In this document: piece after piece, positions 15,530 to 20,019 of the stretch | How the letters are laid out: each line of letters begins with the position of its first letter | How positions within the stretch are numbered: the stretch's first letter is position 1 | The notes under the pieces: model-generated | Told to the model about the DNA's origin: nothing | The model's database searches: none | Seen by the model: only the letters and a program-made list of their open reading frames with translations | Translations under genes and position numbers: made by a program | Assembly (NCBI GenBank): GCA_030592655.1 | Contig: JAUVIQ010000004.1 | Location: forward strand, 1 to 39,006 | Length of the DNA stretch: 39,006 nucleotides | Source of the DNA: Planctomycetales bacterium | GTDB taxonomy: Bacteria; Planctomycetota; Phycisphaerae; SM23-33 | Direction of reading: 5' to 3'

Positions 15530-16513
15530 TTATCCGGTCTCTGCCACGAGGTCGAGGTCTCGCCGCAACGGACCATAACCACCGCCGGAGAGTTCCTTCA
15601 CTTCTGTGTCGAAGAAGGAGCCGATTTCGTCGCGTTCTTCCGGGTTGAGTGTGAAATCGAACGTTTTGAGGCTCTTTTTCAACTGGGAAAGGGAACTGAC
15701 GCCCATTATGGGGCAGGTTATCGCCGGAGACGACCTTATCCATCCGACCGAGACGTCCACCATGGAAACCCCGCGCTCGCGGGCGAAATCCCGCAACTTC
15801 AAGATGCCGTCGCTGTAGTCGCTGAGCCACTTGGCTATGCGCTCGTCGGTCTTCGCGCGGGAATCATCGGGAATCGGCTCGCCCGGTATGTACTTGCCTG
15901 CCAGCAGACCCATAGCGATTGGACGATAGACCATCACTGCTATGTTTTCAGTCTTGGCCATGGGCAGAACCTCTACCTCTACGCCTCGTTCCAGCAGGTT
16001 GTATGGTAGTTGATGGGAAACCATCGGTGCAAGATCGTTCAGGCGGGCGTAGGAATTGGAACACTCCAGAACCCAGGCAGGGTAATTGCTGCATCCGACG
16101 AAGCGGGCTTTGCCGGATTTGACGACCTTGTCCAATGCCTCCATTATCTCGCCGATCCTCATTCCTTTTCGGGGCCAATGGATCAGGTAAAGGTCGAGGT
16201 AGTCGGTCCCCAGGCGGGCGAGACTCTCGTCTATGCTTTCGATGATGGTTTTTGCATCCACGCCCTTATGGACCTTGCCGGAAAGGAATATCTTATCCCG
16301 AAAACCCTTTATCCCTTTGCCGACTATTTCTTCGGTGTTGCCGAATTCCCCGCCGTACATTGCGGCTGTGTCGAAAAAGTTCACACCGGCGTCGAAGGCT
16401 TCATGCATGATCTCTATGGAACGGCTCTCGTCGATGCGTTCCCCGAACATCATGGTTCCGAGGCACATTTCAGAGACTTCCACGTTTGTTTTTCCGAATG
16501 GTACGTATCTCAT
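15530..16513 (-). CDS. Aldo/keto reductase
   Basis: MRYVPFGKTNVEVSEMCLGTMMFG, FFDTAAMYG, DLYLIHWPRKG, CPIMGVSSLSQLKKSL. Confidence 0.93.
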   Translation of the reverse strand: MRYVPFGKTNVEVSEMCLGTMMFGERIDESRSIEIMHEAFDAGVNFFDTAAMYGGEFGNTEEIVGKGIKGFRDKIFLSGKVHKGVDAKTIIESIDESLARLGTDYLDLYLIHWPRKGMRIGEIMEALDKVVKSGKARFVGCSNYPAWVLECSNSYARLNDLAPMVSHQLPYNLLERGVEVEVLPMAKTENIAVMVYRPIAMGLLAGKYIPGEPIPDDSRAKTDERIAKWLSDYSDGILKLRDFARERGVSMVDVSVGWIRSSPAITCPIMGVSSLSQLKKSLKTFDFTLNPEERDEIGSFFDTEVKELSGGGYGPLRRDLDLVAETG

Positions 16514-16667
16514 GTTTTCTCCCGTCTTTGCTGGAATAACCTAATGGAACGCCAATTCGCCTGAATTACCACGATAAAATCTCAAATCGACCGAATTAAT
16601 TACTTGTACGAATACTGCTACGAAACTTCGGTCGTCGCAGATAAACCGTTTCGCGTATGAGTAATCA

Positions 16668-16768
16668 GTGTAATTGGTGATTCGTAATTCGTAATTGGTA
16701 ATTCGTAATCAGTAACCGGGCATCGGGTATTTTTTTACCAATTACGAATTACCAATTACCAATTACAG
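16668..16768. repeat. Inverted arrays of AATTCGT/AATTGGT-type heptamers
   Basis: GTAATTGGTGATTCGTAATTCGTAATTGGTAATTCGTAATC ... ACCAATTACGAATTACCAATTACCAATTAC. Confidence 0.85.
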
Positions 16769-16773
16769 CAGTA

Positions 16774-16803
16774 TTGACGGCTTGCGGGCGAGGAGGTTAT
16801 AAT
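16774..16803 (+). promoter_or_regulatory. Near-consensus sigma70 promoter for the pilus/T2SS operon
   Basis: TTGACG (16774-16779), 18 nt, TATAAT (16798-16803). Confidence 0.75.
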
Positions 16804-16809
16804 AACGTG

Positions 16810-17044
16810 GTGTTGGACCTGAGGCTTTTTTACGTGTGGAAAAGGCTGCGAGCCTTGGAAGCAGAGAAGCAAACGTCCTCATATATTTCATTATCCCGCC
16901 TCAGGTAAGTCCGATATACTTATGTCTCGTTGGAAGCCTCATGGTGTCCGACAGAGGCAACAGGCAAAGCCTCCGATTTTGCGAGAATAAATCGGTGCGT
17001 AGTTTTGGCGTAAAAGCCCATTCAGGCGTAGAACGGGAGAAGTT
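16810..17044 (+). promoter_or_regulatory. ~235-nt structured 5' leader with mutually exclusive helices (candidate cis-regulatory RNA)
   Basis: ACCTGAGGC (16817-16825) pairs with GCCTCAGGT (16898-16906), or GTTGGAC+GAGGC (16812-16818, 16821-16825) with GCCTC+GTCCGAC (16936-16940, 16946-16952); hairpins 16954-16973 and 16973-16995. Confidence 0.5.
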
Positions 17045-18742
17045 ATGGCCAAGAAGAAGAAGCGGCTTGGTGAGATACTGGTTGAATGGGGAGTTGTAAC
17101 GACTGCCGGCGTTGACGAAGCGATTGAACACGCCACCAGTGAAGGTGTGCGGATTGGCGAGGCGATGGTATCGCTGGGTCTGGCCGATGAGGAGGACGTA
17201 ACCAAAGCCCTGGCGACGCAGTTCGACATGGAGTACGTTGATCTTGAGCGTCATGCGGTTGTTCCGAGTCTGATGGAGGAAATTTCCCCCGACATTATTC
17301 GCCGACATCTCGTTCTTCCGATAAGTCGTGAGGGTAATCGTCTCAAAGTTATTATTACCGACCCGCTTGATCTGGAAACGCTTGACATGCTCCGGTTCAG
17401 GCTGGACGCGGAGATCGATTGCGCCCTTGCTTCGAGGACCAGGCTTCGGGACTTTATCGAGCGGTTCGTCGGATCGGACATGAGCATTGACGAAGCGGTC
17501 CATCAGTTAGAGCAGGACACGATGTCGGATGTGGAATCCGATGTTGAAATGGACGCCGAGAGCGCTCCGGTAATACGCCTGGTAACGATGCTGATCACCG
17601 AGGCTGTGAATCTGCGCGCCAGCGATATTCACATCGAACCGATGTCCAACCGTATCCGCGTGCGATACCGGATTGACGGTGTCTGCCGGGAGAGGGATAA
17701 CATACCCAAGCGGATGCAGGGACCGGTGATTAACCGCATCAAGATCATGTCCGGGGTTGACCTTGCCGAGAAGCGACTTCCGACCGACGGTCGAATTACG
17801 ATGGTCGTCGCCGGGACGGATATTGATTTTCGTGTCAGTTTCATTCCGGGGTATCACGGTGAAAGCGTGGTTTTGCGTATTCTCAGGCCTGAAAGCGCGC
17901 GTATGGGGATTGAGATATTGGGCTTTGAGGAGGAGGATGCGGCGCGATTTCATCGTATCATCAAGCGTCCCAACGGGATATTCCTCGTTACGGGTCCGAC
18001 CGGTTCGGGTAAGACGACCACGCTGTACGCGGCATTGAACGAGTTAAATCGTCCGGACCGTAAGATTATCACAGCAGAGGACCCGATTGAGTACAACTTT
18101 ACGGGGATTAATCAGTGCCAGGTCAATGAGACGACCGGTTTGACGTTCGCCAAGATACTTCGTTCCATGCTTCGACAGGCTCCGAATATCATTCTTGTTG
18201 GTGAAATTCGTGACCTGGAGGTCGCTGAGGTTGCAATTCAGGCCGCTCTTACCGGACACTTGGTTTTCAGTACACTCCATACCAATGATGCACCCAGCGC
18301 ACTTACCCGTCTTATTGACATTGGGGTAAAACCGTTCCTGGCGGCCAGTTCCATCCAGGCGGTAATGGCCCAGCGATTGGTCCGTGTAATATGCGATGAA
18401 TGCAAGGAAATCGACCCGAGTCCGGATATGAAACTTCTTCGGGTGCTTGGTTTTAGCGAGGAGGAGTTACAGAGCGCAACTATTTATCGTGGCGCGGGTT
18501 GCGCCGCATGTAATGGAGGCGGATATCGAGGAAGACTTGCTATTTTTGAACTGATGGAGATGAATAACGCCTTGGCGGAACTGGCGATAAGACGCGCCCC
18601 GCTGAGCGAGATGAGACGAGAGGCCCGGGCATCGGGAATGATAAGCCTGCTGGAGGATGGGCGAAGGAAGATATCCAGGGGGATAACGACCCCGGAAGAA
18701 CTGGTCAGAATCACACAAGTTTCGGAATTGGTGATGGACTGA
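17045..18742 (+). CDS. Type II secretion/type IV pilus assembly ATPase (GspE/PilB) paralog 1
   Basis: N-terminal MshEN-like domain; [53 protein letters not shown]; C4 zinc motif. Confidence 0.96.
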   Translation: [565 protein letters not shown]

Positions 18743-18879: not shown

Positions 18880-20019
18880 ATGGCTACCTTACATATTGAC
18901 CGGCTTTTAGAGACTTGTATCAAACGCGGTGCCAGCGATTTACATCTGCACGTAGGTCGCGCGCCGACCCTTCGCCTTCATGGTCGCCTCCGTTCGCTGG
19001 AAACGAAGGTTCTGGAACCGGCCGATACCGTAGCGTTGATGAAGGCTATTACTCCCGAACGCGCCCAGCAGGAACTTCAGGAAGAAGGCGGAACTGATTT
19101 CGGTTTCGCCTTTGGTGACGAAGGGAGGTTCCGCGTCAGCGTTTTCCATCAGCGTGGAAATATCTCGCTGGCTCTGCGACTTATTCCCACCAAGTTGTTC
19201 ACGTTCGACGAGATAGGTCTTCCCCCGATCGTCTAGAGTCTCTGTCGTCGTCCCAGGGGTATTTTCCTTGTTACCGGTCCGACCGGGTCGGGTAAAACGA
19301 CCACGATGGCGACGATGATTGACTATATCAACTATAATTTCGACAAGCACATCGTTACCATTGAGGATCCGATTGAATACTACCACCCGCACAAGAAGTC
19401 GATGATTAATCAGCGCGAAGTCGGCGTGGACGTACCGAGTTTTTCCGAGGCCCTCCGTCGAGTGCTGCGAATGGACCCGGATGTAATCCTGGTCGGCGAG
19501 TTGCGCGACCTGGAGACGATGGAATCGGCGCTTCGTGCAGCCGAAACCGGGCACCTGGTATTCGGGACGCTGCACACCACCAGCGCGCAGGGCACTGTAA
19601 CTCGAATTTCAGAGCAGTTCCCCGTCAATCAGCAGAACCAGATCAGGATACAATTGGCATCTACGCTTATTGCCGTTCTTTGCCAGGCGTTGATACCCCG
19701 GATTGACGTTCGCGGGCGAGTGGCTGCTTATGAGTTCATGGTCGTTACCGGTGCGGTGTCCAACCTGATCCGCGAGAACAAGGTTTTCCGTATTCCTTCT
19801 TCCATTCAGACGGGTAAGAAATTCGGGATGCAGTTACTGGATGAGCACCTGTTCCGCCTGGTTTGTGACGAGAAAATTTCCGCCGAGGATGCCGTGGAGC
19901 AGGCACAGAGTCCGGGGCAGTTACAGGATAAGATTGAAGGATTCCGGAAGGGTCAAATTGCCAAGCCTGAAGAACCAATCAATCCCAACGTACAGGCAGA
20001 GACTGTTTTCAGGAGTTAG
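18880..20019 (+). pseudogene. pilT: PilT-like twitching ATPase split by an in-frame TAG at 19234-19236
   Basis: 18880-19236 and 19306-20019 ORFs are in the same frame; between them [40 protein letters not shown] reads through with no frameshift. Confidence 0.88.

Follow-up and report, generated by a model that had tools for sequence, protein, structure and literature searches.

In Clostridioides difficile, a c-di-GMP-II riboswitch lies upstream of pilA1, with read-through into pilB (PMC6366702), and orphan candidate structured RNAs are known from comparative genomics (for example PMC2864571). The leader of the pilB operon described here resembles the C. difficile system as a candidate for leader control of a pilus operon, but it has no Rfam match and a search for an intrinsic terminator within it found none. 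With the orphan RNAs it shares the kind of evidence, namely conserved leader blocks and a closing stem before one gene, although the covariation of the pilB element, which is not in Rfam 15, lies below the usual standard.

The locus was analysed within a window of 39,006 nucleotides, contig 184 of a metagenome-type assembly (2.86 Mb, 275 contigs, 92% complete; genome G000) whose nearest named relatives by protein search, among the matches listed, are Phycisphaerae and other Planctomycetota. On the 3′ side of pilB, orthologs of which were compared across 35 genomes of the family, lie a pilT-like gene, a second T2SSE ATPase gene, a gene for a T2SSF (pilC-like) protein and genes for pilin-like N-methylated proteins. 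The pilT-like gene (18880-20019) is broken by a single in-frame TAG at about 19234-19236, a place at which related genomes encode Lys or Arg; this would be either a nonsense change at the level of the strain or an error of assembly. Upstream, the leader is bordered by an aldo/keto reductase gene on the opposite strand.

The earlier note had suggested that the leader might be a c-di-GMP (GEMM-type) riboswitch or a 6S-like RNA and had named the Rfam models to be searched. Neither identity was borne out. When the whole window was scanned with Rfam 15, it had no match at the gathering score, and at E<=10 the region 16600-17200 gave chance matches only, mostly to microRNA models because of a palindromic repeat. 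This repeat, an AT-rich near-palindrome of about 97 bp at 16670-16767, just 5′ of the promoter, recurs several dozen times across the genome (83 matches counted over both strands, a copy often being matched on each). As to the individual models, c-di-GMP-I (RF01051) has no covariance-model match in the window, nor at E<=10 in 16600-17200; c-di-GMP-II (RF01786) has none in the whole-Rfam scans of window and leader; and 6S RNA (RF00013) has no covariance-model match to the leader. Both c-di-GMP-I and 6S RNA are matched elsewhere in the same genome. As a positive control, c-di-GMP-I matches were obtained at C6:5667-5752 (48.8 bits) and C57:16934-17036 (35.9 bits), preceding a gene for a PilM protein and a pilin-like gene, respectively, so that GEMM control of pili, as the note expected, probably holds for the genome but not for the pilB operon at 17045. 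The 6S RNA candidate, at C126:7158-7320, falls slightly short of the Rfam cut-off with 43.3 bits, and its counterpart in the congener G003 exceeds the cut-off. Related genomes also carry c-di-GMP-I riboswitches, before a pilM-to-pilB cluster in G018 (C86) and on the contig with a pilB paralog in G027 (C192) and G013 (C105).

What speaks for a c-di-GMP or 6S reading of the pilB leader is the short GEMM-core-like string GCAAAGCCTCCG together with the pilus context, and nothing else; in C. difficile, pilus genes are indeed under the control of c-di-GMP riboswitches (PMC6366702). The string lies outside the blocks conserved in the family. The pilB element resembles c-di-GMP-I in lying in the leader of type IV pilus-type genes and differs from it in lacking a sequence or structure match, in having another conserved core and in being confined to one family and one gene. 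6S RNA is of similar length and likewise has long-range pairing, whereas the present element is linked to pilB in cis. We consider identity with either RNA very improbable.

The features of the leader are collected in Table 1. The promoter proposed by the earlier note is exact (−35 box at 16774-16779, −10 box at 16798-16803), and it is the only sigma-70-like site within 16500-17100. It is also conserved: sites with at least 10 of 12 consensus positions occur in 73% of 30 orthologous pilB leaders of the family and in 1.6% of dinucleotide-preserving shuffles of these leaders, and sites with 11 of 12 in 27% and 0%, respectively. In a relaxed scan, most pilB leaders of the family have the same promoter architecture, mostly 120-370 nt before the start codon. 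Therefore, a long leader is probably a conserved property of pilB in this family, as judged from promoters and not from mapped transcripts, and the leader of about 235 nt before the ATG at 17045 that the note had described is what the conserved distal promoter implies. A start close to 17045, which together with missing covariation was to speak against a regulatory RNA, does not agree with this promoter; the covariation is weak, as discussed below.

Table 1. Features of the pilB leader and their positions in the window.
Feature	Position	Strand	Basis or remark
Sigma-70-type promoter TTGACG-18-TATAAT	16774..16803	+	11/12 consensus match
Untranslated leader	16810..17044	+	Predicted transcription start some 6-7 nt past the −10 box
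5′ block (GTTGGACCTGAGGC), including the 5′ arm of P1 (16817-16825)	16812..16825	+	Unsupervised motif search
Variable insert enclosed by P1	16826..16871	+	Varies strongly in length and sequence from genus to genus
3′ block (ACGTCCTCATATATTTCATTATCCCGCCTCAGGTAAGTC): largely unpaired core and 3′ arm of P1	16872..16911	+	Model R1
3′ arm of P1 (GCCTCAGGT), pairing with 16817-16825	16898..16906	+	Predicted pairing
TCAGGCGTAGAACGGGAG, genus-conserved, holding the ribosome-binding site; possible partner of UCCCGCCU	17022..17039	+	Unproven
pilB/gspE-type ATPase gene, first gene of the operon	17045..18742	+	Pfam PF05157 (MshEN), PF00437 (T2SSE)

Two blocks within the leader are conserved between genera, and the sequence outside them is not recognisably so. 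A BLAST search with the leader returned three congeners and, through 26 bases directly before pilB, a genome of another genus (G023). Reading of the 30 orthologous leaders then revealed the 3′ block, with the consensus YCTCAT...YATCCCGCCTCAG, in 11 of them (G000-G003, G013, G016, G018, G019, G023, G025 and G027). A sequence-only model, R1, built from these 11 block sequences finds them in 11 of the 35 genomes, and 8 of the 28 genera, of the family at 27-38 bits, each time as a single copy directly upstream of the same pilB. Because the sequences from which R1 was built match it by construction, the independent points are that nothing else matches and that the block is recovered by unsupervised search. 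The lowest block match scores 27.4 bits and the next best match in the 35 family genomes 16.5 bits, no match was found in a sample of more than 200 genomes from the rest of the class, and the unsupervised search scored the block at 189.5, compared with 119 +/- 5.2 in shuffles.

The 5′ block, which reads GACCTGAGGC at the predicted transcript start, was likewise recovered without supervision, as GAnCTGAGGCT just after the promoter (114.3 over nine leaders, compared with 94.5 +/- 2.5 after shuffling). A search of the 3′ half for a further conserved motif stayed within the null at a width of 12 nt and was marginal, without a consistent position, at 16 nt. The block stays with pilB despite different upstream neighbours, the neighbour in G023 being an unrelated gene on the same strand as pilB, which from its translation we take to be argC-like. 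This conserved leader position before one operon is as expected of a structured cis-regulatory RNA. A leader peptide or attenuator was considered and rejected: in none of the frames that cross the block is a start codon present in every leader, one frame in G002 has a stop inside the block, and the changes in spacing break the frame.

Most members of the family have pilB and not the block. Leaders without it, for example L015 (G004), L019 (G028), L022 (G009) and L030 (G008), keep a TTGACC-type promoter, whereas their sequence is unrelated and often much shorter; the element has therefore probably been gained or lost within the family. An unsupervised search for a motif common to the block-lacking leaders recovered only the promoter-like TTGACCG.

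The two blocks are complementary. The segments ACCTGAGGC (16817-16825) and GCCTCAGGT pair at nine of nine positions, and this pairing, noted earlier as one of two competing helices, beats 500 of 500 shuffles of the 5′ segment in the present sequence. Its core, CUGAGG:CCUCAG, would join the 5′ and 3′ blocks into a helix, P1, that would enclose the variable insert and the largely unpaired core. Versions of P1 are present in G001, G002, G003, G013, G014, G017, G018, G023 and G027; it is absent in G025 and found only in an altered register in G019 and G016. When 13 leaders were folded from the transcript start to the block, the mean predicted pairing of P1 was 0.83, compared with 0.35 when the 5′ segment was shuffled, and in 10 of the 13 at most 2% of shuffles did as well. 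P1 is thus a predicted helix, supported by these folding predictions.

Covariation, in contrast, is weak. Because the variable insert scatters the 5′ arm in a whole-leader MAFFT alignment, P1 was scored on hand-joined arms. In its 6-bp core, 93% of cells are paired, with one double change, an A-U to G-C change in G014 that keeps the pairing (CTGGGG:CCCCAG) in a block that is otherwise degenerate; in G013, G018 and G002 pairing is kept through G-U pairs. As many as 161 of 500 column shuffles were as good, and the check for covariation among related pilB leaders that the earlier note had called for thus found arms that pair in most leaders and covary no more than shuffles do. Homologous arms are not independent evidence for pairing. 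By fold energy the leader as a whole does not stand out (z = −1.37; −2.38 for 16811-17000).

The other helices noted earlier are less well conserved. The 12-bp alternative, in which GTTGGAC and GAGGC pair with GCCTC (16937-16941) and GTCCGAC (16946-16952), is present in this sequence but absent in all three congeners, G001 and G002 lacking the GTTGGACC segment and G003 lacking GTCCGAC. The hairpin of CCGATTT (16973-16979) and AAATCGG (16989-16995) is also present here but lost in G003, the most diverged congener. A switch in which the 5′ arm would pair alternately with GCCTCAGGT and with GCCTC-GTCCGAC therefore does not stand, since the alternative helix is not conserved in the congeners. When the leaders are folded at full length, other pairings win over P1 in several species, and because these differ between species they do not amount to a conserved competing helix. 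What stands of the earlier proposal is the candidate regulatory RNA itself: the pilus operon is preceded by a long untranslated leader that is conserved and probably structured.

In both arms of P1 the conservation is one of sequence more than of covarying pairs, and this keeps alive the main rival to a cis-acting leader RNA, namely that the blocks are DNA half-sites, a TGAGGC/GCCTCA inverted repeat with a core, for a transcription factor acting from downstream of the promoter, possibly by looping. Inverted-repeat half-sites are typical of dimeric regulators, and the blocks lie close to the promoter. The spacing of the half-sites, however, varies greatly and without helical phase, the 3′ block ends 74-189 nt past the −10 box, the spacing within the core of the 3′ block is 5, 8, 9 or 10 nt in leader alignments, and a search for a regulon of similar sites found no second copy in the genome or the family. 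The 5′ block, in turn, starts 6-23 nt past the −10 box although its distance to the 3′ block varies widely. RNA is favoured over DNA because the 5′ block sits at the transcript start, because the distance between the blocks and the spacing of the core vary so much, and because the blocks are complementary and have no other copies in the genome; we regard the DNA operator as rather unlikely.

If the element acts as RNA, it could act as a translational switch, in which the 3′ block would pair either with the 5′ arm, leaving the ribosome-binding site free, or, via UCCCGCCU, with AGGC..GGGA at that site, which would then be hidden, a factor or temperature choosing between the two. The consensus fold of the four members of the genus prefers the pairing of UCCCGCCU with AGGC/GGGA, and eight pairs are kept in all four; these pairs are, however, unchanged and so without covariation. 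Full-length folds of G001 and G016 place about half of the core on the Shine-Dalgarno region, but the pairing is weak or absent in G019, G023 and G027, and duplexes of the core with its own ribosome-binding site are no stronger than those with unrelated ones (background as good in 9-60%). Sequestration of the Shine-Dalgarno sequence by the core, although suggested by folding within the genus, is therefore unproven and not above background, and we judge such a switch improbable. Equally improbable, in our estimate, is that the leader is not a switch at all and that a 5′-terminal stem merely protects the mRNA from 5′-end-dependent decay. In most leaders P1 does close not far from the predicted 5′ end, and 5′-terminal stems stabilise mRNAs in other bacteria, but protection of this kind needs neither a near-invariant core of about 20 nt nor specificity for one gene.

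The reading that we prefer, and to which we give about an even chance of being correct, is that the leader of the pilB-pilT-gspE-pilC operon is an undescribed, lineage-restricted cis-acting RNA element recognised by a trans-acting factor. Sequence comparison establishes the promoter, the untranslated leader, the two conserved blocks and their specificity for pilB. RNA synthesis would start from the sigma-70-type promoter at about 16810, and the first approximately 16 nt, the 5′ block, would pair with GCCUCAG, some 75 nt downstream, to form P1. P1 would close a domain composed of the variable insert and a largely single-stranded core of about 20 nt (YCUCAU...UYAUCCCG), which it would present near the 5′ end of the RNA. 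The near-invariant core would most likely be the recognition site of an RNA-binding protein, a small RNA or a ligand, and its occupancy may change the translation or the stability of the operon mRNA; recognition of the core by a factor, and regulation as such, are what we infer from this arrangement.

The element is real, narrow and apparently undescribed, being not in Rfam 15, and a literature search on pilB leaders in these organisms found no paper in the collection covered. It is conceivable, though in our view unlikely, that it represents a new class of leader RNA for the pilus-motor operons of one Phycisphaerae-type family, with a core that binds a ligand or protein and two RNA controls per genome: c-di-GMP-I riboswitches for pilM and a pilin gene, and the leader element for pilB-pilT-pilC. 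Different pilus operons of one genome would then be connected with different RNA elements, of which two are true c-di-GMP-I matches. The reach of the finding is limited by the small number of genera with the element (8) and by the weak covariation. If the leader is indeed a regulatory RNA, this undescribed, gene-specific element would make control of the pilus motor testable in an uncultured planctomycete lineage.
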